Assembly: GCF_020905335.1 (NCBI RefSeq)
Contig: NZ_JAJJMN010000001.1
Location: 3,224,001-3,288,000, forward strand
Origin: Flavobacterium lipolyticum
GTDB taxonomy: Bacteria; Bacteroidota; Bacteroidia; Flavobacteriales; Flavobacteriaceae
Length of the DNA: 64,000 nt
Reading direction: 5' to 3'
Shown one piece after another: positions 2-21,049 of the stretch. Within the stretch, counting starts at the first letter, position 1. The number at the start of each line of letters is the position of its first letter. The position numbers and the translations under genes were made by a program. The notes below the pieces were generated by a model. The model did no database searches and was not told where the DNA came from. It was given only the letters and a program-made list of their open reading frames with translations.

Positions 2-3000
2 GGCTATCAGATCAGTGTGAAAGACGTCTTTTTGAACCCAACCATCTCAGGAATTATTAGTAAACTTGAGGAAGGAACCTTCACCGCCATACCCAAAGCA
101 GAGCAACAGGAAAGCTACGTTTTAAGCTCTTCTCAGCACCGCTTATGGATATTAAGCCAGTTTGAAGGAGGGAATCAGGCCTACAACATTCCCGGTTCAT
201 TTGAACTCGAAGGAAATTTAAACACAGCACAATTAGCAGAAGCTTTCAACCTTCTTATGGCCAGACATGAAACCCTAAGAACCTATTTCAAAAGAGACGA
301 TCAGGGAGAAGTGCGTCAATTTATAGTCGATGCCAAAGACATTAATTTTAAAGTAGATTTTGAAGATTTTACTAAAGTTGAAAAACAAGAAGAAGCCCTG
401 GAACAAAGCGTTGCCCAAAGCTATCAGTATCAATTTGATTTAGAGAAAGCTCCTTTGGTAAACCTGAAACTCATCAGACAATCAGAAAACAAACATCTGT
501 TACTTTTCAACATGCATCATATTATTAGTGATGGCTGGTCGATGGGAATTTTAAGCCAGGAACTTATCACGATTTACGATCATTTAACTCAAAATAAAAG
601 CATCAGTCTTCCGGAGCTCAGCATACAATATAAAGACTATGCCACCTGGATGCGAAGTGAAGAACAAATCACCAAACAAAAGAAATCAGAAGCCTATTGG
701 CTGGAGATCTTTGGCGGTAATCTTCCGGTACTGGAGTTACCGACAGACAAAATGAGGCCAAAAATGAAGACCTATGCCGGAGATTCCATCACCCACAATT
801 TCAGCAAAGAAGCAAGTGTTAAGCTGAAAACATTCTCAGAGCAGCACAACAGCAGCCTCTTTATGACCCTGATGGCAGGAATCAACGGATTACTCTCAAG
901 ATACACCAACACCAGAGACCTTATTCTAGGGACACCAATTGCGGGAAGAGAACACAGTGATCTGGAAAATCAAATAGGACTTTATCTCAACACCCTGGCC
1001 ATTCGAACCCGTTTTGAAGAAACAGCAGATTTTGAAACCCTGTTGCAAATACAAAAAGAAACCCTGCTCGATGCCTATTCCCATCAGGAATATCCGCTGG
1101 ACAATCTGGTAGAACAACTAGGCTTAGGTAGAGATACAAGCCGATCAGCACTCTTTGATGTGCTGGTAGTTTTGCAAAATCAGCAGGATTTATTTGCTTC
1201 AAATGCAGAACAAATAGAAAGTTTAACCTTAAAACCTTATAAAGCCAATCCAAGAAAAGTCAGTCAATTTGATTTAAGCTTCATCTTCTCAGAAAAAGAA
1301 GAACAGTTGAGTTTACACATCGAATACAACACCGACATTTATCAGCCGGAATTTGTAGCCCGTTTAGCCAATCATTTAGATACTTTTTTAACCAAAGCCT
1401 TCCAAAATCCGGAGCAAAAAGTAGCCACACTCAACTATTTGAGCCAAGCTGAGACCACACAATTGCTAGTGGATTTTAACGACACAGCAGTAGAGTATCC
1501 TAAAGATCACACTATGGTTGATTTATTTGTAACTCAGGCAAAGAAAACTCCGGAACAGTTTGCTCTGGTGACCGATAGAAAAAGCTTCACCTACAAAGAA
1601 CTCGACGAGATTTCTAACGAACTCTCACACTACCTGTTAAGCAATTACAACTTAGCCGTAGAAGATTTAGTAGGTGTAAAATTGGATCGCAGCGAGTGGC
1701 TCCCTATTGCCTTATTGGCTGTTTTAAAATCAGGATGTGCTTATGTTCCAATCGATCCGAACTATCCGGCACAAAGAATTGAATACATCGAGCAAGACAG
1801 TAAATGCAAAATAACCATAGACGATAGCTTTATGGCAACTTTTAAACAAGCAGAATCCATATCAAAATCATTGCCGCAGATCACTTTTAGTGCACAGCAG
1901 TTGGCCTATATCATCTACACCTCAGGATCCACAGGAAAACCAAAAGGAGTTATGATTACCCATCAGAATGCGGTAGCCATGTTATGCTGGTCGCAAAGAG
2001 AATTTAGCGATACCGATTTTGATATCTTATACGCCGTAACCTCACATTGTTTTGACCTGTCCGTTTACGAATTTTTCTATCCGTTAAGCATTGGAAAACA
2101 AATCCGTTTACTGGCCAATGGATTATCGATAGGAGATTATATTCACAGCGACAAAAATGTACTGATCAATACGGTTCCATCGGTGATCCATACTCTGATC
2201 GAAAAAGGAACCACCTTTGAGAATGCCGTTGGAATCAACCTTGCCGGAGAAGCCTTTCCGGTAAGCATTGCCAATCATTTTGCAGCCTCAGGCATAGCCG
2301 TGAGAAATTTGTACGGACCTTCGGAAGATACTACTTACAGCAGTTATTACCGAGTAGAAGGGACTTACGAAAGCTCGGTACCTATTGGAAAAGCCTTAGA
2401 CAACACCCAGTTTTACGTACTCTCAGAAGAGCTGGCATTACAGCCTGTGGGGGTAATTGGAGAAATCTGTATCTCAGGCGACGGTTTGTCCAGAGGGTAT
2501 TTGTACCAACCGGAACTTACTGCAGAAAAATTTATCAAAAACCCATTCAAAGAAGACAGCAAACTCTATAAAACAGGCGATTTAGGTAAATGGTTACCTG
2601 ACGGTACCATCGCTTACATTGGCCGAAAAGACAGTCAGGTGAAGATCAGAGGACATCGTATTGAACTCGGAGAAATCGAGCAGGTATTGCAGTCTCAGGA
2701 AGAGATCGATCAGTGTGTGGTCCTCACGGCAACTGTAAATGGCGATCCGGTGATTGTAAGTTACTTGGTAAGCACCGCAACTATTGACAAACAACAGCTT
2801 CGTCAGTCACTTTCGAGAGAATTACCGGAATATATGCTACCGAGTTTTTATGTGTTCTTGGATAAATTCCCGCTGACACCCAACGGCAAGATCGATAAAA
2901 AAGCCTTGCCTCCGGTAAGTACAGAGGATGTTATCCAACAGGAATACATCGCACCGACCAATGAAATAGAGGAGAAACTGGTAGCGATATGGCAGGACAT

Positions 3001-3235
3001 TCTAAAACTGGAGAAAATAGGCATTACCGATAATTTCTTTGAATTAGGAGGAAACAGTTTAAAAGCTACTGTTTTAATCAACAGAATCAACAAGGCTTTT
3101 GATACGAGATTTTCTATTGAGGATTTGTATGAAACCCAGGATGTTATTGGAGTTTCGGAAAAACTAAAATTTATCGTATTCCAGAATGAATTGGCCGGAG
3201 AGTCGGTTGATGATTTGGATGAAATTATGATATAA
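2..3235 (+). CDS. NRPS, 5'-partial: (PCP end)-C-A(Ala?)-PCP
   Basis: Nonribosomal peptide synthetase cut by the left window edge. The frame is open back to base 2, and the first residues (VKDVFLNPTISG) are the last helix of an upstream carrier domain, so the GTG at 17 is not the start. Counting from base 2: LCL-type condensation domain from about residue 39 with HHIISDGWS at 172; adenylation domain with YTSGSTGKPKG and the A10 lysine at about 963; PCP with GGNS, phosphopantetheine Ser about 1019. No epimerase or thioesterase. The pocket residues read by eye are D-L-Y-N-N-A-L-T-Y-K, close to the code I recall for Ala in microcystin synthetase McyA (DLFNNALTYK), so Ala is likely but unproven. 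The C-terminal tail (VDDLDEIMI) looks like a short docking motif for the next protein. The A domain is almost identical to that of the next gene. Confidence 0.93.
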   Translation, partial: GYQISVKDVFLNPTISGIISKLEEGTFTAIPKAEQQESYVLSSSQHRLWILSQFEGGNQAYNIPGSFELEGNLNTAQLAEAFNLLMARHETLRTYFKRDDQGEVRQFIVDAKDINFKVDFEDFTKVEKQEEALEQSVAQSYQYQFDLEKAPLVNLKLIRQSENKHLLLFNMHHIISDGWSMGILSQELITIYDHLTQNKSISLPELSIQYKDYATWMRSEEQITKQKKSEAYWLEIFGGNLPVLELPTDKMRPKMKTYAGDSITHNFSKEASVKLKTFSEQHNSSLFMTLMAGINGLLSRYTNTRDLILGTPIAGREHSDLENQIGLYLNTLAIRTRFEETADFETLLQIQKETLLDAYSHQEYPLDNLVEQLGLGRDTSRSALFDVLVVLQNQQDLFASNAEQIESLTLKPYKANPRKVSQFDLSFIFSEKEEQLSLHIEYNTDIYQPEFVARLANHLDTFLTKAFQNPEQKVATLNYLSQAETTQLLVDFNDTAVEYPKDHTMVDLFVTQAKKTPEQFALVTDRKSFTYKELDEISNELSHYLLSNYNLAVEDLVGVKLDRSEWLPIALLAVLKSGCAYVPIDPNYPAQRIEYIEQDSKCKITIDDSFMATFKQAESISKSLPQITFSAQQLAYIIYTSGSTGKPKGVMITHQNAVAMLCWSQREFSDTDFDILYAVTSHCFDLSVYEFFYPLSIGKQIRLLANGLSIGDYIHSDKNVLINTVPSVIHTLIEKGTTFENAVGINLAGEAFPVSIANHFAASGIAVRNLYGPSEDTTYSSYYRVEGTYESSVPIGKALDNTQFYVLSEELALQPVGVIGEICISGDGLSRGYLYQPELTAEKFIKNPFKEDSKLYKTGDLGKWLPDGTIAYIGRKDSQVKIRGHRIELGEIEQVLQSQEEIDQCVVLTATVNGDPVIVSYLVSTATIDKQQLRQSLSRELPEYMLPSFYVFLDKFPLTPNGKIDKKALPPVSTEDVIQQEYIAPTNEIEEKLVAIWQDILKLEKIGITDNFFELGGNSLKATVLINRINKAFDTRFSIEDLYETQDVIGVSEKLKFIVFQNELAGESVDDLDEIMI
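1373..2968 (+). repeat. Near-identical A-domain copy 1
   Basis: The C/A linker and whole adenylation domain of the first NRPS gene align without indels to 4790-6385 in the next gene, at a constant offset of 3417 bp. Stretches of well over 100 bp (for example around 2635-2815) are identical at DNA level, whereas the flanking C and PCP ends have diverged. This is consistent with recent duplication or gene conversion restricted to the substrate-selecting domain. Confidence 0.85.
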
Positions 3236-3343
3236 ACTGATCTCAGTTCAGCCGATAGTATTTTTTGGTGCTAACTAGTGAGAGGAGAATATAACAATTC
3301 TGAAAAACAGAGATGCTTTTTAATTTACTTAAAAAATGATATC

Positions 3344-6300
3344 GTGATAAAAAAATTACTACATACGTTGCAATCCTTGAATATCAGACTTCGGGTTGAA
3401 AATGGGGATTTGAAAATTAATGCTCCGAAGGGGACTTTAACTCCTGAAATTATTGAAGAAATTAAAGCACATAAAAATGAACTGATCACCTTACTTTCGT
3501 CTTCAGAGTCAATTCCAAAGACAGCAGTCAAAGAATCTTATGCGCTTACTTCGTCTCAGCACCGTTTGTGGACCTTAAGTCAATTTGAAACCGGTAACTC
3601 AGCCTATAACCTGTTTAATGCCTTTGAGTTTAAGGGAGAATTGAAACTTGAAAAATTAGCCGAGGCCTTTCAAATTTTAGTGAGGAGACATGAGAGCTTA
3701 CGTACCATTTTTAAAGAAGACGAACAGGGGAATCTGGGACAGTATATTGTCCCGGTGGCTCAGTACAGTGGAACTTTACAGTTTACAGATTTAAATAATG
3801 CTACAGCTGAAGTCCTGAGCAATCACGCCAATGCACTTCAAAGACATGCTTTTGATTTAGAAAGAGGACCTCTTTTTATAGGAGAGATTGTAAAGACAGC
3901 TGCAGATCATCATGTTCTAATGCTTAATATGCATCACATTATTGGCGATGGCTGGTCGATGGGGATATTGAGTAAAGAATTTATAACGATTTATAACGAA
4001 TTGGTTATAGGAAATGAGATCGTATTATCCGACTTGTCTATTCAGTACAAAGATTATTCAGAATGGCAAAACAGTCCGTCCAGACAAGCAGTGCTGGAAA
4101 AATCTAAAGCGGTATGGTTAGAGACATTCTCAGGAGATTTACCGGTTTTGGAACTGCCTTCCAATAAAGTAAGACCGAAGCTTAAAACGTATAACGGCTC
4201 GGGGTTAAAGCACACTTTTTCAAAAGAAATTACCGGTCAGTTTAATGCTCATGCACAGCAAAATGGGGTAACACTTTTTATGTTTTTAATGGCAGGTATA
4301 AACGGATTATTGTCCAGATATACCAACACCAGGGACCTCATTTTAGGAACCCCCATAGCCGGAAGAAAACACAGTGATCTGGAAAATCAGGTTGGATTGT
4401 ATTTAAATACACTGGCCATTCGAACCACATTTGAAGCAACAGCAAGTTTTGAAGAATTACTCAGTATACAAAAAGAAACCTTACTAAAAGCCTATTCTCA
4501 TCAGGATTATCCTTTTGATAGTTTGGTAGAAGCGCTTAATCTTAAAAGAGATTTAAGCCGTTCGGTTTTGTTTGACGTCCTGGTGGTATTTCAAAATCAA
4601 CGGGAATTATTAGCGTCTGAAAACCTAACCATAAACGGTGTTGAAATAAAGCCTTATAAAAATCTGAAAAAATCATTTAGCAAATTTGATTTAACCTTTG
4701 CTTTCGCAGAATATCAGGGAGAACTGAGTTTGTACATGGAATACAATACCGATATTTACGAATCTGGATTTGTAGCGCGATTGGCGGCTCATTTAGATAC
4801 TTTTTTAACCAAAGCCCTCCAAAATCCGGAGCAAAAAATAGCCACACTCAACTATTTGAGCCAAGCCGAGACCACGCAATTGCTAGTGGACTTTAACGAC
4901 ACAACAGTAGAGTATCCTAAGGATCACACTATGGTTGATTTATTTGTCAGTCAGGCAAAGAAAACCCCGGAACAGATTGCTTTATTAACCGATACCAAAA
5001 GTTTTACCTACAAAGAACTCGATGAGATTTCTAACGAACTCTCACACTACCTGTTAAGCAATTACAACTTAGCCGTAGAAGATTTAGTAGGTGTCAAACT
5101 GGATCGCAGCGAATGGCTGCCTATTGCCTTATTGGCTGTTTTAAAATCAGGATGTGCTTACGTTCCAATCGATCCGAATTATCCGGCACAAAGAATTGAA
5201 TACATCGAACAAGACAGTAAATGTAAAATAACCATAGACGATAACTTTATCGCAAGTTTTAAACAAGCAGAATCCATATCAAAATCATTGCCGCAGATCA
5301 CTTTCAATGCACAGCAGTTGGCCTATATCATTTACACCTCAGGATCCACAGGAAAACCAAAAGGAGTTATGATCACCCATCAGAATGCGGTAGCCATGTT
5401 ATGCTGGTCACAAAGAGAATTTAGCGATACCGATTTTGATATTTTATACGCCGTAACTTCACATTGTTTTGACCTGTCTGTTTACGAATTTTTCTATCCG
5501 TTAAGCATCGGAAAACAAATCCGTTTACTGGCCAACGGATTATCAATAGGAGATTATATTCACAGCGACAAAAATGTACTGATCAATACCGTTCCATCGG
5601 TAATCCATACTCTGATCGAAAAAGGAACCACCTTTGAGAATGCCGTTGGAATCAACCTTGCCGGAGAAGCCTTTCCGGTAAGTATTGCCAACCATTTTAC
5701 CAACTCAGGCATTGCCATTAGAAATCTGTACGGACCTTCGGAAGACACCACCTACAGCAGTTATTACCGAGTAGAAGGCACTTACGAAAGCTCCGTACCT
5801 ATTGGGAAAGCCTTAGACAACACCCAGTTTTATGTACTCTCAGAAGAGCTGGCATTGCAACCTGTGGGGGTAATTGGAGAAATCTGTATCTCAGGCGACG
5901 GTTTGTCCAGAGGGTATTTGTACCAACCGGAACTCACCACAGAGAAGTTTATCAAAAACCCATTTAACGATACGACTAAATTGTACAAAACAGGCGATTT
6001 AGGTAAATGGTTACCTGACGGCACCATCGCTTATATTGGTCGAAAAGACAGTCAGGTGAAGATCAGAGGACATCGTATTGAACTCGGAGAAATCGAGCAG
6101 GTATTGCAGTCTCAGGAAGAGATCGATCAGTGTGTGGTCCTCACGGCAACTGTAAATGGCGATCCGGTGATTGTAAGTTACTTGGTAAGCACCGCAACTA
6201 TTGACAAACAACAGCTTCGTCAGTCACTTTCGAGAGAACTGCCGGAATATATGCTGCCGAGTTATTATGTGTTCTTGGATAAATTTCCACTAACACCCAA

Positions 6301-6646
6301 TGGTAAGATCGATAAAAAAGCCTTGCCGCCGGTAAGCACAGACGATGTTATCCAACAGGAATACATTGCTCCAACCAATGAAATAGAGGAGAAGCTCGTT
6401 GCCCTCTGGCAGGAGATACTAAAATTAAATAAAATTGGAACGATAGATAATTTTTTCGAACTGGGCGGGAATAGTCTTAATGCAACCAAGCTATTGTCAT
6501 TAGTACATCAGACATTTGACATTAAGGTAAATATGGAGGTCGTTTTTACAAATCCGACTATTCAGTTTCTGGCAGTAGAAATAGAGAATTTAATATGGTT
6601 AAGAGAAATTAAAACCACTTCTGACGTAAAAAAAATGGTCATTTAA
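3344..6646 (+). CDS. NRPS: TubC dock-C-A(Ala?)-PCP
   Basis: Single-module NRPS. I chose the GTG at 3344 because the protein then begins (MIKKLLHTLQSLNIRL...) exactly as TubC-type N-terminal docking domains do. The longer reading from the GTG at 3278 adds 22 residues of no recognisable character. Domains: docking about 1-55; LCL condensation from about 66 with HHIIGDGWS at 197; adenylation with YTSGSTGKPKG and NGKIDKKALP; PCP Ser about 1044 (GGNS). The specificity pocket (D-L-Y-N-N-A-L-T-Y-K) is the same as in the preceding gene, so both modules should load the same residue, probably Ala. The C domains differ much more than the A domains, which points to gene conversion or recent A-domain duplication. 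The tail ends VKKMVI, a probable docking motif. It lies 108 bp downstream of the preceding gene and is presumably in the same operon. Confidence 0.93.
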   Translation: MIKKLLHTLQSLNIRLRVENGDLKINAPKGTLTPEIIEEIKAHKNELITLLSSSESIPKTAVKESYALTSSQHRLWTLSQFETGNSAYNLFNAFEFKGELKLEKLAEAFQILVRRHESLRTIFKEDEQGNLGQYIVPVAQYSGTLQFTDLNNATAEVLSNHANALQRHAFDLERGPLFIGEIVKTAADHHVLMLNMHHIIGDGWSMGILSKEFITIYNELVIGNEIVLSDLSIQYKDYSEWQNSPSRQAVLEKSKAVWLETFSGDLPVLELPSNKVRPKLKTYNGSGLKHTFSKEITGQFNAHAQQNGVTLFMFLMAGINGLLSRYTNTRDLILGTPIAGRKHSDLENQVGLYLNTLAIRTTFEATASFEELLSIQKETLLKAYSHQDYPFDSLVEALNLKRDLSRSVLFDVLVVFQNQRELLASENLTINGVEIKPYKNLKKSFSKFDLTFAFAEYQGELSLYMEYNTDIYESGFVARLAAHLDTFLTKALQNPEQKIATLNYLSQAETTQLLVDFNDTTVEYPKDHTMVDLFVSQAKKTPEQIALLTDTKSFTYKELDEISNELSHYLLSNYNLAVEDLVGVKLDRSEWLPIALLAVLKSGCAYVPIDPNYPAQRIEYIEQDSKCKITIDDNFIASFKQAESISKSLPQITFNAQQLAYIIYTSGSTGKPKGVMITHQNAVAMLCWSQREFSDTDFDILYAVTSHCFDLSVYEFFYPLSIGKQIRLLANGLSIGDYIHSDKNVLINTVPSVIHTLIEKGTTFENAVGINLAGEAFPVSIANHFTNSGIAIRNLYGPSEDTTYSSYYRVEGTYESSVPIGKALDNTQFYVLSEELALQPVGVIGEICISGDGLSRGYLYQPELTTEKFIKNPFNDTTKLYKTGDLGKWLPDGTIAYIGRKDSQVKIRGHRIELGEIEQVLQSQEEIDQCVVLTATVNGDPVIVSYLVSTATIDKQQLRQSLSRELPEYMLPSYYVFLDKFPLTPNGKIDKKALPPVSTDDVIQQEYIAPTNEIEEKLVALWQEILKLNKIGTIDNFFELGGNSLNATKLLSLVHQTFDIKVNMEVVFTNPTIQFLAVEIENLIWLREIKTTSDVKKMVI
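4790..6385 (+). repeat. Near-identical A-domain copy 2
   Basis: Partner of the copy at 1373-2968, offset 3417 bp with no indels seen. Differences are scattered, mostly synonymous changes. Confidence 0.85.
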
Positions 6647-6711: not shown

Positions 6712-9700
6712 ATGGAGAATATCGCTTATTTGATTAAAGATTTGAGGTCACGAGGTATTGGTGTGACATTGTCTGGTGATGATTTGGAAATTTCACAATT
6801 AAAAGAAGAAATAGATACAGATACAATTAACTTTATTAGAAATAATAAAGAGAGACTGGTAAATTATCTGCGTTCTTTCTCGTCTCAGGATTCATTCTCA
6901 GAAATACCCAATGCTCCATCTTTATCAAGCTACCCGATATCTGATGCACAACGCAGATTATGGGTGTTAAGCCAGTTTGAAGAAGGTACGGTAGCCTATA
7001 ATATGCCATCCCGAATAGTATTAAATGGGGATTACAACATTGAAATGTTCAAACAAGCGATTCAGGCTGCTATCGACCGTCATGAAATATTGCGTACGGT
7101 ATTTAAAGAAAATAGTGCCGGAGTTGTGCATCAACATATACTTACACCAGAAGCATTGAATTTTAAAGTCGATTATAAGGATTTTAGAATATTGGGTAAT
7201 GAGTCAGCAGCAGCTATAGATTTATACATAGAAGAAGACAAGCAATTGAAGTTTGACCTTGAAAATGGTCCGCTAATCAGAGCTTCATTGTTACAGATGA
7301 CTGATGATAGCTATACTTTTTACTATAATATGCATCATATCATCAGTGACGGATGGTCTATGAAGGTACTTTCGAATGATGTATTGGCCTTTTATAATCA
7401 TTATGTAAACAAAACTCCGTTAGAATTATCTGAATTAAGAATACAGTATAAAGATTACTCGGCCTGGCAGCTTTCACAATTAGAAACAGCATCTTATAAA
7501 GCAAGCAAAGAATACTGGAACGATCTTCTGTCCGGCAGCATTTCAACAATTGATTTACCAAGCACAAAAAAACGTCCTTTGTTTAAAACAAACAGGGGAC
7601 AAAAAATAAGCACTTTTGTTTCTAAAGATACCACTTCAAAACTTAAGTTGTATTGTAATCAACAGGGGGGAACGCCATTTATGGGCTTACTATCCGCTTT
7701 AAATGTTTTAATCTACAGGTATACCAATACCAATAATATTGTTATCGGATCTCCTATTGCAGGCAGAGAGCATGTAGAACTGAAAAATCAAATTGGATTC
7801 TATACCAATACTTTGGCATTACGCAATGAATTAAACCCTTCAGATAGTTTTAATTCGGTTTTTAATCTGGTAAAACAGAATACCTTAAATGCATATACCC
7901 ATCAATCGTATCCGTTTGACAGACTCGTTGAAGACCTGCAGGTAAAGCACAATACTTCCCGCAACTCGTTTTTTGATATTATGATGGTATTTCAGAATTT
8001 TGATCATGATACCGCTGACTTTGATTGGAAGGAGGAAAAAGAGAAAGAAATTGTAGATTTAGGAGTATCCAGTCCAAAATTTGATATAGACATCACTTTT
8101 GAAATCGTTGGCGGTCACCTTAAAATAGATCTTGAGTACAATACAGATGTTTATGAATATGAAGTCATAGCGAAATTTGTAAATCATTTTAAACAATTGC
8201 TTAAGAATATTTTTGACCAACCGGAAAAGGAAATCTCAAAAATTGAACTTCTTTCTGAAAAGGAAAAGCAGGAACAATTATATGAATCTAATGATACAAA
8301 AGCAGTTTATCCTAAAGGAGAAAATATCATCAGTTTATTTGAAGCTCAGGTTAAAAAAACACCAAACAAAACCGCTGTTATCTATAAAGACATTAAACTG
8401 TCATATTCTGATTTAGAGGAGAAATCAGATGCTTATGCGGTATACCTGACTTCCATGTTTAATGTAAAATACGGTGACAGAATTGTAGTTACATTACCTC
8501 ATGATGAACATCTTTTAGCCGTTTTATTAGCCGTTAAGAAAACAGGAGCCATCTATGTTCCGATTGATCTTGAAACGCCACAAAGCCGAATTGATTTTAT
8601 AAAAGAAGACAGTGAGAGTACTATTGTTATTGATGAGAATCTCTTGCTAGAAATGAATGCTTTCGAGAATAAAGGAAGAAAATTTGTAAAACCTCAGCCT
8701 ACCTATGATAATGAAATTGAATTTCTTATTTACACCTCAGGTTCTACTGGAATACCTAAAGGGATATTGATAAAATCTGAAAGTGTATGCAACAGACTGT
8801 ACTGGATGTGGAATAATTATCCGTTTCAGGAAACAGAAATTTGCTGCGCCAAAACCTCAATAAGTTTTGTAGACCATATTTGGGAACTATACGGACCTCT
8901 GTTAAAAGGAATTCCTTCTGCGTTTTTTAAAAAATCAGAGATTTTGGATATCCGCGGTTTTATTAAAAGTTTACAAGAAAATAAAGTAACCCGTATTGTA
9001 CTGGTGCCATCCTTGTTAAGAGCTTTACTGGCTCATCCTGCCCTGTGCAAAGAAGAGTTAAAGCTGCTTAATGTATGGATAAGCAGTGGAGCTTCGTTAA
9101 AGAAAAGTGACGTGCAGCATTTTTATGCCGTACATCAACGAGGAGACGTTAGGTTATTAAACATATACGGATCTACAGAAGTGACAGCAGATGCGACCTA
9201 CTATGATACTTATGAAGACTATAATCATTATAAAGATTTTAAACTTTTTGAATACACTTCAGATGACAAAATAGAAGCCTTAATTTCACAGCACGACGTA
9301 GCGTCAAAAATAGTATCAGAAGACTTTCAATCTCTTTTGGATCTGAAAAATTTTAAGGATGTTGGTCTTGATTCTCAATACAATCCCGATGCCTATCTGA
9401 AATTTGTAGCAACAGAAGTAATTCCTAATGTGGTTAATGTGAGCAAACCTTCCTTCATAGGTCACATGACAAGTCCTATTCCTAAAATTATTAGAGAAAT
9501 GAATGCTCTAATAGTGGCGCTGAATCAAAATCAGGTTAAAATAGAAACCTCTATGGTAGCTACTTTGATTGAAAAACAGGTAATAGGAATATTTCACAAC
9601 CTGGTATATGCAAATGATCTGAAATTTTATGACGATTTTGTTCAGAATGCAGATCAGGCCCTTGGTGTAATCACCAATGGCGGTACCATGTCTAACCTGA

Positions 9701-11652
9701 TGGCCATAAATTATTCGTTAAATAACTTATTGGGACCTAAAGAAGGATTTAGCGGGATTAAAAAAGAAGGACTTTTAGCAGCACTCAGGGCCTATGATTT
9801 TGATCGTGTCGTTTTACTGGGGTCAGATTGGTGTCACTATTCATTTGGAAAAGCTTTAAAACTTTTAGGTCTGGGTACCGATGCTTTTATCTCCATAGAC
9901 TATGAAGGAAAAGAAGCAGCTGCTTTAGAAACAGAGATCGTTTCACTGATTGCAAAATTACGTGAAGAAAAGTGTCTTATTTTAGGTTTAGTCGGTATTG
10001 CGGGAACAACGGAGTCCGGAAATATCGATCCGCTTGAAATTTTAGGAAAAATAGCAAACCATCATAACATTCATTATCATGTGGATGCCGCTTTTGGAGG
10101 CAGTTTTTTAACGGACGATACGCTTAAACTGAAAATGAAAGGTATAGAATTAGCCGATTCAGTTTCGATTTGTGCTCATAAACAATTGTACATTCCGATC
10201 GGTTTGAGTGTTTGTGTTTTTAAAGATCCGAATTTTGTAAATTCTTCAGAGAACAATACCCATTATCAGGCGAGAAAAGGAAGTTATGATCTGGGTAAAT
10301 ATACTATAGAAGGCTCCAAGAACTTTATGAGTTTTGCTTTACACGCCGTATTTAAGATTTTTGGGAAAGAAGGCTTTGCGCAGGTAATCAGACACAATTA
10401 TGCTACAGCACAGTTTTTTGCACAAGCGATTGATAAACACCCGGATTTTGACCTTGTTTTTAAGCCCGATCTGAATATTGTACTGTACAGATATTTACCT
10501 AAAAAATACAGAGGTAAGGAAAGTCTGAGTAACGAAGATTTAGAACAAATCAATGAGATCAATCTTAAGATTCAGAAGGAACAATTTAAACAAGGAAATT
10601 CTTTTGTTTCCTATACACAGATAAAGAAAAGGGAAAATGAGCAAAGACATCTTCTGTTCCGAACGGTTTTCATGAATCCATATACCACAAAAGAAGATTT
10701 GTTATCCTTATTAGAAGAGCAGGTTACCATTGCTGCCACTATCGAAAACAGACTTTACGAATCGCATTCCAGTGTTCAGAATGAAAGCATTTTTATTGGT
10801 AAACCGATAGAAAATGTCAAGGTGTACATCCTTGATGAATTTTTAAACGTATTACCGGCCGGAGTGGTAGGGGAGATCTGTATCAGTGGAGAATGTGTGT
10901 CTGCAGGATATACAAATACTGTAGAAGATTTTGCGGCGAAGTTTATCGAGAATCCATTTTTAAAAGGAGAACGTTTGTTTAGAACAGGCGATTTAGGAAG
11001 AAAATGGGAAGACGGTAATATTGAGTTTGTAGGAAGAAAAGACCATCAGATTAAAATTAGAGGAAATCGCGTTGAATTAGGCGAGATCGAAAATACCTTG
11101 TGCAAAAGAAAGGAAATAAGTCAGGCTGTAATTACGGTTATCGAGAATGGTGTGTCTCAGGAAAATGAACTTGCCGCTTACATTATTTCCAGCCAGAAAG
11201 AAGAAGTAATGGATCTGCGGGCATCCTTAAAAAAGAGCCTTCCGGAATATATGATTCCTTCTTATTTTGTACAGTTAGAAAAATTTCCGGTACTCACCAA
11301 TGGAAAGATTGATCTCAAAGCATTACCGGATCCTCTGACAGAAGGCATTTCGACCAAAGTAGCTTACGTGGCACCACGCAATGCTATTGAAAAAGAACTA
11401 GTCAGTATTTGGCAGGAAGTTTTGGATAAAGAAAAGATAGGGGTATTAGATGATTTCTTTGAACTAGGAGGTCACAGTATAAAAGGAACTAAACTTCTGT
11501 CCCAAATAAACAGAGCTTTTAATGTCGAGATAAACATTAAAAATTTATTTATGTCTCCTACAATAGAATGTTTGGCGGCACAAATAAAATTTATAGAAAC
11601 CCAGGAGCAAATAAAGTCTGAAAAAGAATCACTTACAGAAATAGAATTATGA
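6712..11652 (+). CDS. NRPS with aspartate decarboxylase inside a beta-Ala A domain: dock-C-A(n)-PLP-DC-A(c)-PCP
   Basis: Domains by residue: TubC-like docking 1-55; LCL condensation from about 74 with HHIISDGWS at 208; adenylation with YTSGSTGIPKG at 674 and A5 (IYGSTE) at 818; a complete PLP-dependent decarboxylase at about 845-1355; the adenylation domain then resumes with IGKP at 1361, GRKDHQIKIRG near 1442 and the A10 lysine about 1532; PCP Ser about 1589 (GGHS). The pocket code, read across the insertion, is V-D-W-V-I-S-I-A-D-K. It differs from the classical beta-alanine code (VDWVISLADK) at one position and lacks Asp235, as expected for a substrate without an alpha-amino group. The insert resembles PanP-type aspartate 1-decarboxylase, so the module may convert Asp to beta-Ala and load it. 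The stop overlaps the next start (ATGA), so translation is probably coupled. The tail ends LTEIEL. The domain calls are secure; substrate supply in cis is inference. Confidence 0.93.
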   Translation: MENIAYLIKDLRSRGIGVTLSGDDLEISQLKEEIDTDTINFIRNNKERLVNYLRSFSSQDSFSEIPNAPSLSSYPISDAQRRLWVLSQFEEGTVAYNMPSRIVLNGDYNIEMFKQAIQAAIDRHEILRTVFKENSAGVVHQHILTPEALNFKVDYKDFRILGNESAAAIDLYIEEDKQLKFDLENGPLIRASLLQMTDDSYTFYYNMHHIISDGWSMKVLSNDVLAFYNHYVNKTPLELSELRIQYKDYSAWQLSQLETASYKASKEYWNDLLSGSISTIDLPSTKKRPLFKTNRGQKISTFVSKDTTSKLKLYCNQQGGTPFMGLLSALNVLIYRYTNTNNIVIGSPIAGREHVELKNQIGFYTNTLALRNELNPSDSFNSVFNLVKQNTLNAYTHQSYPFDRLVEDLQVKHNTSRNSFFDIMMVFQNFDHDTADFDWKEEKEKEIVDLGVSSPKFDIDITFEIVGGHLKIDLEYNTDVYEYEVIAKFVNHFKQLLKNIFDQPEKEISKIELLSEKEKQEQLYESNDTKAVYPKGENIISLFEAQVKKTPNKTAVIYKDIKLSYSDLEEKSDAYAVYLTSMFNVKYGDRIVVTLPHDEHLLAVLLAVKKTGAIYVPIDLETPQSRIDFIKEDSESTIVIDENLLLEMNAFENKGRKFVKPQPTYDNEIEFLIYTSGSTGIPKGILIKSESVCNRLYWMWNNYPFQETEICCAKTSISFVDHIWELYGPLLKGIPSAFFKKSEILDIRGFIKSLQENKVTRIVLVPSLLRALLAHPALCKEELKLLNVWISSGASLKKSDVQHFYAVHQRGDVRLLNIYGSTEVTADATYYDTYEDYNHYKDFKLFEYTSDDKIEALISQHDVASKIVSEDFQSLLDLKNFKDVGLDSQYNPDAYLKFVATEVIPNVVNVSKPSFIGHMTSPIPKIIREMNALIVALNQNQVKIETSMVATLIEKQVIGIFHNLVYANDLKFYDDFVQNADQALGVITNGGTMSNLMAINYSLNNLLGPKEGFSGIKKEGLLAALRAYDFDRVVLLGSDWCHYSFGKALKLLGLGTDAFISIDYEGKEAAALETEIVSLIAKLREEKCLILGLVGIAGTTESGNIDPLEILGKIANHHNIHYHVDAAFGGSFLTDDTLKLKMKGIELADSVSICAHKQLYIPIGLSVCVFKDPNFVNSSENNTHYQARKGSYDLGKYTIEGSKNFMSFALHAVFKIFGKEGFAQVIRHNYATAQFFAQAIDKHPDFDLVFKPDLNIVLYRYLPKKYRGKESLSNEDLEQINEINLKIQKEQFKQGNSFVSYTQIKKRENEQRHLLFRTVFMNPYTTKEDLLSLLEEQVTIAATIENRLYESHSSVQNESIFIGKPIENVKVYILDEFLNVLPAGVVGEICISGECVSAGYTNTVEDFAAKFIENPFLKGERLFRTGDLGRKWEDGNIEFVGRKDHQIKIRGNRVELGEIENTLCKRKEISQAVITVIENGVSQENELAAYIISSQKEEVMDLRASLKKSLPEYMIPSYFVQLEKFPVLTNGKIDLKALPDPLTEGISTKVAYVAPRNAIEKELVSIWQEVLDKEKIGVLDDFFELGGHSIKGTKLLSQINRAFNVEINIKNLFMSPTIECLAAQIKFIETQEQIKSEKESLTEIEL
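9245..10780 (+). other. Embedded group II PLP decarboxylase (PanP-like aspartate 1-decarboxylase) domain
   Basis: About 510 residues, the size of a free-standing group II decarboxylase, inserted in the loop between A5 (GSTE) and the IGKP motif before A6. Visible features: SKPSFIGHMTSP and the nearby ALNQNQVKIETS, as I remember them from Vibrio PanP; ITNGGTMSN (Thr about 992) for cofactor phosphate; HVDAAFGG with the pyridine-N-binding Asp about 1125; and SICAHKQLY with the Schiff-base Lys about 1157. No active-site residue appears lost, so the domain should be active. Family members decarboxylate Asp, Glu or 2,4-diaminobutyrate. The beta-Ala pocket of the host A domain favours Asp. The boundaries are approximate to about 15 residues. 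Confidence 0.88.
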
Positions 11653-14600
11653 TCGATTTATTACATAAAATAACAGAGGGCGGAATCGCTTTAGATATAG
11701 TAGATGGTCAATTAAAACTTTATGCAAAAGCCAAAGAAGTAGACCCGCAATTACTAGCAGAAATAAAAGAAAATAAAGAACAAATTCTGGCGTATTTATT
11801 AGATACCGGAGCATTAGATAAAAACACAGCTGTCCTACAGCCTATCGTTCCTGTTGCTCAGGCAGAAAATTATGCGCTTTCATTTGGACAGCAGAGATTG
11901 TGGACATTAAGCCAATTTGAATCCGGGGCAAGCACTTATAACATGCCCTATCATATTGAGCTTAAAGGACAGTACGATCTTATTTATCTTAAGCAAGCGA
12001 TACGTGCTGTCATAGACCGCCATGAAATATTGCGTACCGTATTTAAAACAAATGAAATAGGAGAAGTACGTCAATACATAATTCCAAGTGAAGATTTTGA
12101 GTTTAATGTCACTTATATTGACTATCGAAATGCCTCCGATAAAGAACAGGAAGTACAAGATTATATAACCAATGACGCTTCTAAATCTTTTGATTTGGAA
12201 ACAGGTCCTTTGTTTCGCGTTGGTTTGCTGCAAACAGACGATAATCGATATACTTTTTACTACAACCTGCACCACATTATTAGTGACGGATGGTCGATGA
12301 ACATCTTATCACAGGATGTACTTCATTATTACAAAGCCTATGCAAATAATGCAGCTGTAGCACTGGAACCGTTAAAAATTCAGTACAAAGACTTTGCAAA
12401 TTGGCAATTGGAACATTTAAATAGTGAGTCGAGTACTCTTTCAAAAGAATATTGGGCCAAAGAGCTGTCAGGTGATTTACCGGTGCTGGACCTACCGTCT
12501 GAAATTGTTCGCCCGTCTGTCCTATCTTATGAAGGTCGTGGATACAGAACTTATTTTTCTAGAGAACTTTCGAAACGTATCAAAGATTTTTCTACAGAAA
12601 ATGGAGGAAGTTTATTTACGGGACTTTTAGCAGCCTGGAATGTGCTGTTTCATAAATATTCAGGAGAACAGGACATACTTATTGGAAGTCCTAATGCAGG
12701 CCGGGACCATGCAGATGTGTTCAATCAGATTGGGTTTTATGTAAACACAATGGTTTTACGAAATACAATAGATCCTGAGATGACTTTCAGATCTCTTTAT
12801 AAGCAGGTAAAAGACCGAACTCTTGAATCTTATAAACATCAAACCTATCCGTTCGACCGTATCATTGAAGATTTGAACATTCAAAGAAACGTTGGCAGAA
12901 ATGCCATTTTTGATGTTTTACTGGTACTGCAAAATGCCGGAATTCAAATTTCAGATGCTGATCTGGAAAATATAGAGGTTAGCGAGATCAGAGAGTTAGG
13001 TGTTAAGGCCGCTAAGTTTGATGTAGAACTAAGTTTTGTCGAGGCAGGAAGTTATCTTGCTTTTGATCTTACGTACAACACGGCGGTGTATGATGAAGGG
13101 AGTATGAAAAGAATGATCAGCCATTACCAGCAATTATGGGAGGAGTTATTAGACAATCTGGATACACCGGTAACGGATATCTCTTATATTTCTGAAAAAG
13201 AAGAACAGCAGCTGCTTATTGATTTTAATAAAACAACAGCACCTTATCCCGATACGTTATCCATCCCGGAAGTATTCGAAAAACGAGTTCAGGAATCTCC
13301 CGATGCAGTAGCAGTTGTGTATGAAGATCAGAGTTTTACGTATTTAGAATTGGATGATTTATCCAATAAATTTGCCCAGTTTATACAAGATCAATATACA
13401 ATCGCTTCTAATGACACTATAGGGATTAAGCTGGAGCGAAATCATTGGTTTGTGGTAGCGTTATTGGGCGTACTAAAAGCAGGTGCTGTGTATGTACCAA
13501 TGGATCCCGAGTTTCCAAAAGATGTATTGGACTTTATTACAAATGATGCTGCCTGTATTTTCTGTATAACAAAAGAAGAATTACAAGCCTTCATAACCTG
13601 TAAAAAGGATATTGATATTTCAGATTTTAAGCTAAATCAAACAGCAGATCCGTTAGCCTATATTATGTATACCTCGGGATCTACCGGAAAACCAAAAGGA
13701 GTAATCATAAATCAAAAGTCAATTTTGCGATTAGTGATGAACACCAACTATTTGGATGTTACTTCACATACTGTTTTAGGACTCTCAAATTTTTCATTTG
13801 ACGGCTCTACTTTTGATATTTTTATGCCTTTATTAAATGGAGCTAAGCTTGTCATTTCTGAGAAAAATATATTTCTTGATCTCCAAAAATTCAATGAGTT
13901 AATAATCACCAAAAACATTAGCTGCTTTTTTATAACAACAGCCCTTTTTAATGTCATTGTTGAAGCCGAATTACCTGCGTTAGGGCAAATAAAATGTATC
14001 TTATTCGGAGGGGAACAAGTCTCTGTAAAACATGTCAAAAGATTCAAAGACCTATATCCTGCAGTAAGTTTACGTCATGTTTATGGCCCAACAGAAAATA
14101 CAACATTTTCTACATTTTATGAAATCAATGCCATCAGTGACAATCCTAAAACGATACCTATTGGCTGTTCAATTACAAACAGTACCAGTTATATATTAGA
14201 TGCTAAAAATAAATTAGTTCCTATCGGAGTTCCGGGTGAGATATGTCTTGGAGGTGAAGGCATCGCCGAAGGTTATCTCAATAGACCGGATTTAACAGAA
14301 ACTAAATTTGTGCCTCATCCTTTTATTGATGGATTAAGTATTTACAAAACCGGAGATACAGGGAAATGGCTGTCGTCTGGAGATATCGAATTTATTGGAC
14401 GTAAAGATGATCAGATAAAAATAAGAGGTCATCGTATCGAGTTAGGAGAAATAGAAAATGCACTATTAACCATAGATGCGATAGACGATGCCATTGTAAT
14501 TGCAAGAAAAAACAAAAACGACGAAAAAGAGATCGTTGCCTATATGGTATCCGGAGTAACGTTGAGCGCTTCTGATTTACGAAACGAACTAAAGAAAAAG

Positions 14601-17600
14601 TTAGCCATTTATATGCTGCCTTCTTATTTTGTACAACTGGATCAGTTTGTATTAAACAGCAATGGAAAGGTAAATAAAAAATTACTTCCGGATCCTGAAA
14701 CAGTCTGCCTTTCTACTACCTCAGATTATGTGGCGCCAAGAAACGGTAAAGAAGAACTTTTAGTTAGTATTTGGACTGCTGTCTTGCAAAAAACTACGGT
14801 AAGCGTTACCGATAACTTTTTTGAATTAGGCGGGCATAGTCTTAAAGCAGCCAGATTAATTGAAGAGTATCGCAGAGCTTTTAATGTTAAGCTTACTTTA
14901 GAGACAATTTTTTTGCATCCCATATTAGAAGATCATGTACAGCTTATTGAAGAGAGTACCTATTCAGAATATCAGTCGATACCGGTTATGGACAGTAACG
15001 ATAGTTATGCACTTTCGGCAGGCCAAAAAAGATTATGGGCTTTAAGCCAACTGGAAACAGGAGCATCGATGTACAATATGTCATTTCATACCATACTGGA
15101 AGGGAGTTATGATATAGCCGTTCTTAAACAGGCCATTTATGCAACAATAAAACGTCATGAGATACTACGTACCGTTTTTAAAATTGATGATAGTTTAGGA
15201 GAGCTTCGTCAGTATATTATTCCTAATGATTCATTTTATCTCGATATTCCTTTCCTGAATCTTCAGGGTGAAGACGGCATAGAAGATAAACTTGCTGCTT
15301 ATCGCAAAGAAGACCTCCATCTTCCATTTGATTTGACAAACGGACCATTAGTAAGAGCCTGTTTGTTTCAGTTAGAAGAAGCAAAATATGCTTTTCATTA
15401 TAGTATGCATCATATTATAGGTGACGGCTGGTCTATGGAAGTTTTATCCAAAGACATATTCACATTTTATGAAAGCTTTAAAAATAATACAACCGTTTCA
15501 CTGCAACCGCTTAAAATACAGTATAAAGAGTATGCAAATTGGCAGCGATTGCAATTAGAAGAGGCTTCCAGTCAGCAGGACAAAGTATTTTGGAAAGAAT
15601 TGCTGAACGGTTCATTACCAGTACTTGATTTGCCAACGCAAAAATTGAGACCAGCTGTTAAAACAGCTCAGGGGAGACGATTCAGAACCTATCTTTCAGC
15701 AGAGCAGACAACAGCAATTAAAGGAGTAACTCAGGAATATGGAGGAAGTTTGTTTATAGCCCTTTTTTCAGGCTGGAACATCTTGTTGCATAAGTATACG
15801 GCTGCACGTGACATAATTATTGGAACTCCGGTAGCAGGAAGAAATCATATTGATCTTCTGGATCAGATAGGGTTTTACGTCAATACAATTGCATTAAGAA
15901 ACGAAGTTAATCCGGAATTGTCTTTTGTCTCTTTTTATAAAAAAATAAAAGAACAAACCCTAAAGTCTTATAACCATCAAATGTATCCGTTTGATCAGTT
16001 AATAGACGATCTGGATATTCGACACCAAACCTCCCGAAATGCTGTTTTTGATATCATGTTTTCTTTACAGAATGTACTATCTCACAGGGTGGATGCAATC
16101 GTATCAAAAGATGCTGTAATGGCAATTGAAGATACAGGAGAAGCGATTGCGAAATTTGATTTAGAAGTAAACTTTCAGGAAGTGGGACAATGTTTGTTAT
16201 TTGATGTAACCTACAACACAAATGTTTATGAAGCAGAAACGATCGAAGGTCTTATGAACCACTATAAGCAATTATGGAATGTAATTCTTGAGCAGCCAAA
16301 TGAATTAATTCAGAATCTTACTTATTTATCACAAGAAGAAGAAGATCAGCTGGTTCACACATTTAATAATAATGACATTATATATCCTGAAGAGGATACG
16401 ATTGTAACACTATTTCAACAACAGGCAGAAAAAACGCCACATAATTTAGCAGTAGTTTTTGGAGAAACACAAATTACGTATGCACAGCTGGATGCACTTT
16501 CTGATAAGATGGCAAACTATATCAGAAATACAAATGATGTTCATCCTGAAGATCTTATAGCCGTGAAGTTAGAAAGAAGTGATTGGTATGTGATCGCGCT
16601 GCTGGCGATACTTAAAACGGGTGCTGCCTATGTACCTATTGATCTGAATTATCCGGAAGATCGTATTGCATTTATTCAAAGCGACAGCAACTGTATTGCT
16701 ACAATAGATGATTCTTTTATCTCCGAATTTCAAAATGCAACTATTGTATCAGATAGCAGGGATGTAATGGTACAGGCTTCTAATATGGCCTATGTAATAT
16801 ATACTTCGGGATCTACCGGAAAACCTAAAGGTGTCATGGTCGAACACAAAGCCTTAAGTAACTTGTGCCACTGGCATCAAAAAGAATACAGTCTAAGCAC
16901 AGACAGCAGATGTACATTGTACGCGAGTATAGGTTTTGACGCCTCTACATGGGAATTATTTCCAACGCTCTTAAGTGGAGGATGTGTGTACCCAATACCG
17001 GAATCCATTCGCTTAAAAACGGCAGACTTAATTGCATTTTTCAATACCCATAAAATAACGCAGGCTTTTGTTCCTACAGTATTATACAACGATATATTAC
17101 GAGACAGTGCAGCACTGCAGCAGCCTTTAAAACTGTTATTAGGAGGCGAGGCACTTATAGTAAAAGATGTAAACGATAAGCTGGAAATCTATAACAATTA
17201 TGGTCCTACCGAGAATGCAGTGGTAAGTACTTGTTATAGAGTAAAAAAGGACACTGTAGGATTGGTGCCGATAGGAAAACCAATAGGTAATGTGAAAACT
17301 TATATTCTCGATGAAAATGGAAGCCTGGTACCTCCGGGAGTAACAGGAGAGTTATGCCTGGCAGGAAAGAGTCTGGCCAGAGGCTATTTGAATAGCCCTT
17401 CACTGACTGGGGAAAAATTCGTGTCACATGTTTTGGCAGGTGATGGGAAGCTCTATAAAACAGGTGATCTTGCCAAATGGCTTCCGGATGGAAACATTCA
17501 GTTTATGGGACGTAAAGACAATCAGGTGAAATTGAGGGGATATCGTATCGAACTTGGAGAAATTGAAGCGGCTTTGCAAGAAATAAGCGGGATTAAAGAA

Positions 17601-18125
17601 ACAATTGTTCTTGTAAAAGAGATTAAAGGTGAAAAATACATTACGGCATATATGGTAGGTAACACCGAAATTGATCGCATGATTCTTAAAAAGAAGCTAA
17701 GCAGAACTTTAGCAGACTACATGATACCAACCTATTTTATTTATGTAGACAGTATGCCATTAACCGCTAATGGAAAAGTAGATGTCAAATTACTGCCGGA
17801 TACAGACGACATACAATTTAAGGAAGTGGCCGTTTATGTATCTCCCGAAAGTGATTTAGAAAAACAGCTGGTTACCATATGGCAGGACATCCTAGAAAAA
17901 GACAGAATAGGAATAGAGGACAGCTTTTTTGCACTTGGCGGACATAGTTTGAAAGCAATACAAGTGATTTCTAAAATTCAGAAAGAATTCAATATCAAAA
18001 TTGAACTTAAAGAATTGTACAACGAACCAAGAATTAAAAACCTGGCAAGTTACATAGAATCGATACAAATTCTGAACAGCCAGCAGCCAGTCTTTATGGC
18101 TGTTGGTGAAGAATTGGTTTTTTAA
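11649..18125 (+). CDS. NRPS, two modules: dock-C-A(Ile)-PCP-C-A(Leu)-PCP
   Basis: Bimodular NRPS starting inside the stop of the previous gene (ATGA). TubC-like docking domain 1-55. Module 1: LCL condensation from about 75 (HHIISDGWS at 208), adenylation with YTSGSTGKPKG about 673, PCP Ser about 1064. Module 2: LCL condensation from about 1120 (HHIIGDGWS at 1254), adenylation with the YTSGSTGKPKG motif at 1718, PCP Ser about 2100. Pocket codes by eye: module 1 D-G-F-F-L-G-V-T-F-K (Ile-type, Val possible); module 2 D-A-W-F-L-G-N-V-V-K (the classical Leu code). Neither module has an epimerase. The tail ends GEELVF, a candidate docking motif for the gene at 22857. An intrinsic terminator 40 bp downstream closes this transcription unit. 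Confidence 0.94.
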   Translation: MIDLLHKITEGGIALDIVDGQLKLYAKAKEVDPQLLAEIKENKEQILAYLLDTGALDKNTAVLQPIVPVAQAENYALSFGQQRLWTLSQFESGASTYNMPYHIELKGQYDLIYLKQAIRAVIDRHEILRTVFKTNEIGEVRQYIIPSEDFEFNVTYIDYRNASDKEQEVQDYITNDASKSFDLETGPLFRVGLLQTDDNRYTFYYNLHHIISDGWSMNILSQDVLHYYKAYANNAAVALEPLKIQYKDFANWQLEHLNSESSTLSKEYWAKELSGDLPVLDLPSEIVRPSVLSYEGRGYRTYFSRELSKRIKDFSTENGGSLFTGLLAAWNVLFHKYSGEQDILIGSPNAGRDHADVFNQIGFYVNTMVLRNTIDPEMTFRSLYKQVKDRTLESYKHQTYPFDRIIEDLNIQRNVGRNAIFDVLLVLQNAGIQISDADLENIEVSEIRELGVKAAKFDVELSFVEAGSYLAFDLTYNTAVYDEGSMKRMISHYQQLWEELLDNLDTPVTDISYISEKEEQQLLIDFNKTTAPYPDTLSIPEVFEKRVQESPDAVAVVYEDQSFTYLELDDLSNKFAQFIQDQYTIASNDTIGIKLERNHWFVVALLGVLKAGAVYVPMDPEFPKDVLDFITNDAACIFCITKEELQAFITCKKDIDISDFKLNQTADPLAYIMYTSGSTGKPKGVIINQKSILRLVMNTNYLDVTSHTVLGLSNFSFDGSTFDIFMPLLNGAKLVISEKNIFLDLQKFNELIITKNISCFFITTALFNVIVEAELPALGQIKCILFGGEQVSVKHVKRFKDLYPAVSLRHVYGPTENTTFSTFYEINAISDNPKTIPIGCSITNSTSYILDAKNKLVPIGVPGEICLGGEGIAEGYLNRPDLTETKFVPHPFIDGLSIYKTGDTGKWLSSGDIEFIGRKDDQIKIRGHRIELGEIENALLTIDAIDDAIVIARKNKNDEKEIVAYMVSGVTLSASDLRNELKKKLAIYMLPSYFVQLDQFVLNSNGKVNKKLLPDPETVCLSTTSDYVAPRNGKEELLVSIWTAVLQKTTVSVTDNFFELGGHSLKAARLIEEYRRAFNVKLTLETIFLHPILEDHVQLIEESTYSEYQSIPVMDSNDSYALSAGQKRLWALSQLETGASMYNMSFHTILEGSYDIAVLKQAIYATIKRHEILRTVFKIDDSLGELRQYIIPNDSFYLDIPFLNLQGEDGIEDKLAAYRKEDLHLPFDLTNGPLVRACLFQLEEAKYAFHYSMHHIIGDGWSMEVLSKDIFTFYESFKNNTTVSLQPLKIQYKEYANWQRLQLEEASSQQDKVFWKELLNGSLPVLDLPTQKLRPAVKTAQGRRFRTYLSAEQTTAIKGVTQEYGGSLFIALFSGWNILLHKYTAARDIIIGTPVAGRNHIDLLDQIGFYVNTIALRNEVNPELSFVSFYKKIKEQTLKSYNHQMYPFDQLIDDLDIRHQTSRNAVFDIMFSLQNVLSHRVDAIVSKDAVMAIEDTGEAIAKFDLEVNFQEVGQCLLFDVTYNTNVYEAETIEGLMNHYKQLWNVILEQPNELIQNLTYLSQEEEDQLVHTFNNNDIIYPEEDTIVTLFQQQAEKTPHNLAVVFGETQITYAQLDALSDKMANYIRNTNDVHPEDLIAVKLERSDWYVIALLAILKTGAAYVPIDLNYPEDRIAFIQSDSNCIATIDDSFISEFQNATIVSDSRDVMVQASNMAYVIYTSGSTGKPKGVMVEHKALSNLCHWHQKEYSLSTDSRCTLYASIGFDASTWELFPTLLSGGCVYPIPESIRLKTADLIAFFNTHKITQAFVPTVLYNDILRDSAALQQPLKLLLGGEALIVKDVNDKLEIYNNYGPTENAVVSTCYRVKKDTVGLVPIGKPIGNVKTYILDENGSLVPPGVTGELCLAGKSLARGYLNSPSLTGEKFVSHVLAGDGKLYKTGDLAKWLPDGNIQFMGRKDNQVKLRGYRIELGEIEAALQEISGIKETIVLVKEIKGEKYITAYMVGNTEIDRMILKKKLSRTLADYMIPTYFIYVDSMPLTANGKVDVKLLPDTDDIQFKEVAVYVSPESDLEKQLVTIWQDILEKDRIGIEDSFFALGGHSLKAIQVISKIQKEFNIKIELKELYNEPRIKNLASYIESIQILNSQQPVFMAVGEELVF

Positions 18126-20871: not shown

Positions 20872-21017
20872 ATTTTAATAGTTTTTTAACAGGTTGTGAA
20901 TATAGGAAAAATTGGAGATATGATGTTAAAATAATTTTATTTCTATACGAATTTAACTTCATTTCAATAAAAATGATATTTGGTTTTTTGGCCGCTTTTT
21001 TTCTTCTTAAATTCGTT

Positions 21018-21049
21018 ATCAAAAACTACACTTAAGGGTGGTTTTTGAT
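21018..21049. promoter_or_regulatory. 32-bp near-perfect palindrome in divergent promoter region
   Basis: ATCAAAAACTAC at 21018-21029 pairs with GTGGTTTTTGAT at 21038-21049 with one mismatch, around a central CTTAAG. It lies between the divergent LuxR-type and GNAT-like genes, so it is more likely an operator than a terminator. Confidence 0.5.

Follow-up and report, generated by a model that had tools for sequence, protein, structure and literature searches.

Adenylation (A) domains of nonribosomal peptide synthetases (NRPSs) can be interrupted by an auxiliary enzyme, and in the accessible text of a 2024 review these inserts are methyltransferases, oxidases or ketoreductases lying at a8-a9 or a2-a3 (PMC11355689); the first-pass annotation of the locus described here had given a matching account, with methyltransferase, oxidase or reductase inserts usually at A2-A3 or A8-A9. 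A decarboxylase insert is named neither in that text nor in the accessible part of a 2022 review (PMC8949500). The architecture with an embedded decarboxylase was documented by 2013 at the latest, its function being left open. In the available sections of their paper, Milano et al. (2013) give JamL of jamaicamide biosynthesis in Lyngbya majuscula (UniProt Q6E7J8) as KS-AT-ADH-KR-CP-C-HxxPF-A-PLP4-A-CP, describe its Pyridoxal_deC domain as embedded within the adenylation domain with a function "not clarified", and place it in diaminobutyrate decarboxylase (B6db) (PMC3870968). With JamL already listed as A-decarboxylase-A, the annotation's description of such an insert as undescribed has to be withdrawn. 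Jamaicamide contains a beta-alanine unit, and the original JamL paper is reportedly that of Edwards et al. from 2004. NRPS A domains that select beta-alanine exist as well, since MakasB-A1 of kasumigamide biosynthesis does so in vitro (PMC5061366, as far as accessible), and in adenylation enzymes for beta-amino acids the beta-amino group is bound by a conserved Asp, according to the available part of a review (PMC11284099).

In this work we have analysed a stretch of 64,000 nucleotides from Flavobacterium lipolyticum (the window; contig NZ_JAJJMN010000001.1, positions 3,224,001 to 3,288,000 of the forward strand), in which one NRPS gene carries a decarboxylase inside its A domain. From the sequence we consider it probable that this gene encodes a beta-alanine elongation module whose interrupted A domain carries its own precursor-making enzyme and is supplied in cis from aspartate.

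Results

The gene occupies 6712..11652 on the forward strand as a single uninterrupted ORF with an ATG start (1646 aa; ORF and translation check), and its domains, assigned with Pfam, run docking-C-A(N)-decarboxylase-A(C)-PCP, all of them, like the neighbouring NRPS genes of its cluster in the window, being on the same strand. A TubC_N-like docking domain (residues 4-54, 6721..6873), whose 25.6 bits fall just short of the Pfam cut-off of 26, precedes a condensation domain (residues 73-522, 6928..8277) with the motif HHIISDG at 208. The first part of the A domain (residues 543-833, 8338..9210; Pfam AMP-binding match at 543-834) holds motifs A1 at 563, A2 at 609, A3 at 674, A4 at 719 and A5 at 817, and the second part (residues 1361-1540, 10792..11331) holds A6 at 1387, A7 at 1423, A8 at 1441, A9 at 1510 and A10 at 1530; a peptidyl carrier protein follows (residues 1562-1623, 11395..11580; Pfam PP-binding). 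With all ten motifs located, complete and in order around the insert, the earlier placement of the insert between A5 and A6 of an otherwise complete A domain stands. Alignment with uninterrupted relatives delimits the insert to 527 aa (residues 834-1360, 9211..10791), which stand where those relatives have a short loop (about 20 residues) that links the strand after A5 with the IGKPI strand ahead of A6. We rejected an assembly artefact because four proteins on other, independent contigs (P0003-P0006) have the same layout, with an insert identity of 79-82%, because the GC content across the insert is even and because the site is common to other phyla. No PDB entry matched both the insert (41 sequences) and the first A part (60 of 61 matches).

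The core of the insert is a PanP-like group II PLP decarboxylase (residues 900-1335, 9409..10716). Pfam Pyridoxal_deC covers residues 900-1261 (3.7e-41), and when the insert was searched against NCBIfam, PanP (TIGR03799) was by far the best match (457.6 bits, 4.4e-137), well ahead of L-2,4-diaminobutyrate decarboxylase (128.8 bits) and MfnA (109.5 bits). The name PanP itself was rejected for the insert, because its 457.6 bits do not reach the curated cut-off of 606.1 bits. The match begins at profile position 55 and most of the N-terminal part is therefore retained. The cofactor and catalytic residues were located as Thr992, Asp1125 (10084..10086), Lys1157 (10180..10182), His1042, Tyr1185 (10264..10269 together with Gln1186) and Arg1317 (10660..10662), which bears out the claim of a group II PLP decarboxylase with intact Thr992, Asp1125 and Lys1157. 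By its sequence the insert is a complete auxiliary enzyme with the PLP and catalytic residues of PanP. By homology we take their roles to be those of the PLP Schiff-base lysine (Lys1157), the Asp at the PLP pyridine nitrogen (Asp1125), a stacking His, the Tyr of the catalytic loop (Tyr1185) and the Arg that holds the substrate carboxylate (Arg1317).

The family considered here consists of 189 listed proteins from two protein searches with different queries, which contributed 120 of 152 and 120 of 168 matches; another listing, with 120 of 1190 matches, also lies behind the counts given here. Among the 189, the window protein is counted twice (P0001, P0002) and some entries, P0060-P0065 for instance, are near-copies; the named sources of the set are Bacteroidota, Cyanobacteria, Gamma- and Betaproteobacteria and other groups. 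A search for the A-decarboxylase-A architecture in other genomes had been proposed with the annotation, and the order A(N)-decarboxylase-A(C) was indeed found in 183 of the 189 listed relatives, a count on which we rejected a chance layout. As for the remaining six, P0010 and P0051 end after the decarboxylase, P0250 is cut before it, and P0263, P0282 and P0304 have other layouts. Some embedded members (P0057-P0082, about 1522 aa; P0075, P0087, P0088 and P0091, about 1295 aa) are without a Pfam-listed carrier domain and may load a carrier in trans. In terms of genomes, a scan from which 80 named loci were kept gave nine embedded and 71 not embedded. Only the window's own genome matched at E 1e-60 among 392 sampled genomes of the phylum, and in 79 other genomes related to it no reading frame of more than 539 aa matched. 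Matches were found in 17 of 195 genomes of a cyanobacterial order (three with frames spanning 857-2742 aa and 14 with frames of 542-566 aa), in one of 147 in the family of the Chitinophaga oryziterrae genome, and in six of 79 in the genus of Chitinophaga YR573, where three are free and three lie in large frames. The embedded decarboxylase family is rare but widespread. The insert diverges in parallel with the first A part (r 0.83, the value also obtained for one A part against the other) and less closely with the second (r 0.64; 58/60 rows in each case); we rejected a recent insertion because the layout is common to several phyla and the insert and the A domain co-diverge.

Is the insert an active enzyme? 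Lys1157, His1156, Asp1125, His1042, Tyr1185, Arg1317 and Asn1322 are kept in all 189 listed relatives and thus across several phyla, free-standing forms beside a similar A domain keep the catalytic residues too, and 64 of the 67 positions conserved in both the embedded and the free class are identical to PanP. These observations argue against an insert that is catalytically dead or only dimerises the module, which we regard as extremely unlikely even though the fold-type-I enzymes form dimers in which active sites are shared (PMC3870968, accessible part). The literature searched, mostly without subscription papers, contained neither a biochemical test of an embedded decarboxylase nor a report of activity for any embedded member, which would accord with a dead insert.

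The specificity pocket was read by alignment. Residues V720, D721, W724, V763, I790, S792, I818, A826 and D827 (8869..9192) give the code VDWVISIAD for positions 235, 236, 239, 278, 299, 301, 322, 330 and 331, and the tenth residue is the Lys of the A10 motif NGKID at 1530, so that the pocket VDWVISIADK is as the annotation had it. We mapped these positions to GrsA-Phe numbering through assumed motif positions, and the same read-out yields recognisable codes elsewhere in the window, for example DAWTIAAIC at 43874-49846. VDWVISLADK is a pocket code for beta-alanine, a string that we did not find in the literature searched. In the window protein the amine-binding Asp is at 236 and Val at 235, whereas Asp235 is present in 18 of 18 other A-domain stretches read from the same genome (some domains twice) and in four further upstream A domains. 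Across the family 185 pockets were readable, P0250, P0263, P0282 and P0304 being left out and P0263 and P0304 read separately. Among these 185 listed pockets the counts were 184 for Asp236, 178 for Val or Ile at 235, 184 for Ser301, 182 for Ala330 and 185 for Asp331, with Ala or Thr at 235 in seven and Gly at 236 in one; the consensus is [VI]D...S.[AG]D. The beta-amino-acid code proposed for the window protein, with Asp236 in place of Asp235, thus extends to 184 of the 185. The main variation is W239 with I/T299 versus A239 with F299, perhaps a volume swap, and since these two positions vary the products of the family need not be identical.

The pocket also bears on when decarboxylation takes place. 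Aspartate could be loaded through its beta-carboxylate and stripped of its alpha-carboxylate by the insert on the PCP, giving beta-alanyl-S-PCP. We find this very unlikely: neither the window pocket nor the family consensus has a basic residue for a second carboxylate, separate-gene forms exist (see below), and PanP relatives, going by the NCBIfam family name, act on free aspartate. What speaks for it is that methyltransferase-type interrupted A domains modify the PCP-bound, not the free, amino acid (PMC11355689, accessible text), and that Milano et al., in the available sections, offer the speculation that another Pyridoxal_deC domain, placed C-terminally, decarboxylates in the context of a carrier (PMC3870968).

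We compared 121 embedded decarboxylases with 104 free ones from the PanP side, all taken from the listed matches. At least 95% conservation in both classes was found at 67 positions, of which three differ between the classes (1154, 1166 and 1292). At position 1186, adjoining the catalytic Tyr, Gln is present in 121 of 121 embedded and Ile or Val in 101 of 104 free enzymes. The fingerprint C1154-S1166-Q1186-F1292 occurs in 188 of the 189 listed relatives, the exception being P0304; free PanP has D-G-I/V-R instead, with 100-101 of 104 at each position, and C-S-Q-F is found in three of the 104. Along the sequence all four positions lie near Lys1157, the catalytic loop and Arg1317. As the insert differs from PanP at these positions and misses the PanP cut-off, a changed substrate is possible, and the same layout might serve a decarboxylase that acts on a substituted aspartate (3-methyl- or 3-hydroxyaspartate, for example) and yields a substituted beta-alanine. 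The split between C-S-Q-F and D-G-I/V-R so near the active site, and a pocket with W or A at 239 and F, I or T at 299, would fit such a substrate. We nevertheless consider it unlikely for the window protein, whose large W239 leaves little room and whose pocket resembles the beta-alanine code VDWVISLADK. No gene for a modified aspartate was identified in the window part of the first cluster, and the position of the CmlA-type hydroxylase (50034) assigns it to the second.

A tree of 77 rows that includes an outgroup unites the NRPS-associated enzymes in a single clade beside PanP (59 rows, SH-aLRT 83, moderate), with free forms nested inside and the Photobacterium forms basal. Because the free forms nest within the NRPS-associated clade, the tree suggests one insertion into an A domain followed by several releases as a free gene, while the basal Photobacterium forms would leave the direction of the first step open. 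Of 16 free-standing proteins that a separate tree places within the embedded clade, 15 carry C-S-Q-F and P0122 carries C-S-Q-L. P0122 (601 aa) has a docking-like N-terminus followed by a decarboxylase 57% identical to the window insert and no A domain; it is perhaps a decarboxylase recruited in trans.

Free forms were also examined in their gene context. In Chitinophaga sp. YR573 (L025) a separate decarboxylase gene adjoins an NRPS with an uninterrupted A domain of code VDWVTSIAD, and two further loci of the genus (L147, L148) have the same arrangement, so that this A domain neighbours a free decarboxylase of the clade in three of the five loci examined. In the other two, from the genus Photobacterium (L145, L146), no such code was found among the NRPS A domains read within 20 kb, a reading that left out the AMP-binding domain of a neighbouring A-ACP-KS-AT-ACP protein. 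The free decarboxylases there (L145 9151-10815, L146 9229-10848) are of the embedded class and are flanked by this protein and by NRPS genes that show no VD-type pocket. Uninterrupted A domains with the code VDWIISLAN were read in L035 and L038, both cyanobacterial; L038 also has a free decarboxylase of PanP type, at a distance of about 4.6 kb. In L045 the embedded A domain has an uninterrupted one, of code VDATFSIAD, upstream of it. P0304, a fusion in the order decarboxylase-C-A-PCP, has a VDWW pocket and a decarboxylase of PanP type from the PanP side of the tree, and is an independent coupling of decarboxylase and A domain. P0263 (1635 aa) is C-decarboxylase-A-PCP with the Asp-like code DAAKIGHIG; its first A part seems to have given way to a complete A domain of a different type.

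The window gene lies in an NRPS cluster, of which it is the seventh of nine modules by A-domain count: three are in L107 2970-12311, two in the gene that enters from upstream (2..3235, A code DLYNNALTY), one in the single-module gene at 3278..6646 (again DLYNNALTY), one in the window gene and two in the gene directly downstream (11649..18125, codes DGFFLGVTF and DAWFLGNVV), which overlaps it by 4 bases. No thioesterase domain was found in the four scanned NRPS genes of this first cluster within the window. Directly after the last of them lies a ThiF-family protein (18396-19157), which may either belong to housekeeping tRNA modification or contribute to release. A regulatory cassette, consisting of a LuxR-type protein of 252 aa, a 238-aa protein and a NusG-like protein of 184 aa, occurs twice about 36 kb apart, at 20113-22596 of the window and at L107 308-2791 (G000:C1 about 3208307-3210791), and heads two neighbouring NRPS clusters; the copies are identical at 252/252 positions of LuxR and 183/184 of NusG. 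The second, siderophore-like cluster (22857-59222) has NRPS genes, a KS-AT-ACP PKS (40726-43773), the CmlA-type diiron hydroxylase already mentioned, a TonB-dependent receptor (51741), a thioesterase (54146), an ABC transporter (55030) and a penicillin-amidase-like acylase (56847). The genome as a whole (G000) is very NRPS-rich: across its 5.77 Mb the window protein has 144 matches.

Discussion

Under the preferred reading, the PanP-like decarboxylase would take free L-aspartate, which would form an external aldimine on Lys1157 and lose its alpha-carboxylate as CO2 to give free beta-alanine. The surrounding A domain, with its amine-binding Asp moved from 235 to 236, would adenylate beta-alanine on its only carboxylate and load it on the PCP for condensation. 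By analogy with other fold-type-I enzymes the insert presumably homodimerises, and beta-alanine might be channelled from the insert to the A domain, if there is any channelling. The two activities, aspartate as the substrate and beta-alanine as the product are what we infer from residues, codes and gene order. The proposal that a single protein both produces and loads its monomer is supported by the link between insert and pocket code, seen in 184 of the 185 readable listed pockets, and by the separate-gene VDWVTSIAD forms; the joint divergence of the insert and the first A part and the independent fusion in P0304 also speak for the preferred reading. On the other side stand the score below the PanP cut-off, the four class positions, the two Photobacterium loci, P0263, the seven of 185 pockets with Ala or Thr at 235 and the one with Gly at 236.

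Why should a decarboxylase be embedded in an A domain at all? It could have substituted for a missing PanD, an explanation that we rejected: PanD scores over its cut-off in the window's own genome and is present in 10 of the 11 genomes of related loci that we tested, all except a Parabeggiatoa metagenome assembly. Because PanD is present, the insert is neither needed for pantothenate nor the sole origin of beta-alanine in the cell, and it looks dedicated to the peptide. We infer that a local supply of beta-alanine which spares the pantothenate pool would be the simplest reason for the embedding. A wider proposal, tentative and in our view rather doubtful, is that C1154-S1166-Q1186-F1292 marks an NRPS-dedicated class of aspartate decarboxylase, which entered the A5-A6 loop of a beta-alanine A domain once in ancient times, spread over several phyla and was released several times as a separate gene; since the decarboxylase must dimerise, the insert would make the module a homodimer, and it would hand beta-alanine to the pocket apart from the PanD pool.

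If the preferred reading is true, the domain of an assembly line that selects a non-proteinogenic monomer also houses the production of this monomer, which precedes activation; the interrupted A domains in the accessible parts of the two reviews instead tailor the amino acid after loading (PMC11355689, PMC8949500). A5-A6 would also be a natural insertion site that those parts do not list. For genome mining, an A5-A6 insert of about 530 residues would predict beta-alanine or a close analogue. Through the insert-code coupling, the forms with separate genes and the four class residues, the function can be put to a direct test.

How, then, does the window protein compare with known systems? In PanP (TIGR03799) the insert has its best family match, the same catalytic residues and the shared conserved positions counted above; it departs from PanP in having C1154, S1166, Q1186 and F1292 for D, G, I/V and R, in scoring under the curated cut-off, in being embedded in an NRPS and in belonging to host genomes that also have PanD. 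The Chitinophaga systems (L025, L147, L148) share the C-S-Q-F class of decarboxylase, as seen in the near-identical or related P0126, P0128 and P0135, and a pocket of the same kind, VDWVTSIAD; they differ in using two genes and in an A5-A6 loop of about 20 residues. JamL, which we know by its published layout alone, likewise has a Pyridoxal_deC domain nested in the A domain and a carrier after it, but is a PKS-NRPS hybrid, in contrast to the window protein, which consists of one NRPS module and has a docking domain. JamL does not appear by name among the matches listed by the two family searches (120 of 152; 120 of 168). Two PKS-NRPS members of the window family, P0266 and P0277, combine KS-AT-KR with an embedded decarboxylase and the matching code and may be compared with it. 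TioS, TioN, KtzH and ColG, as presented in the accessible text of PMC11355689, resemble the window protein in having an auxiliary enzyme nested in an A domain with complete motifs; their inserts lie at a8-a9 or a2-a3 and tailor the loaded amino acid, whereas that of the window protein lies at A5-A6 and would make the precursor before adenylation. As far as these searches go, the layout was known, and its breadth, the coupling to the code, the separate-gene forms and the class residues are new.
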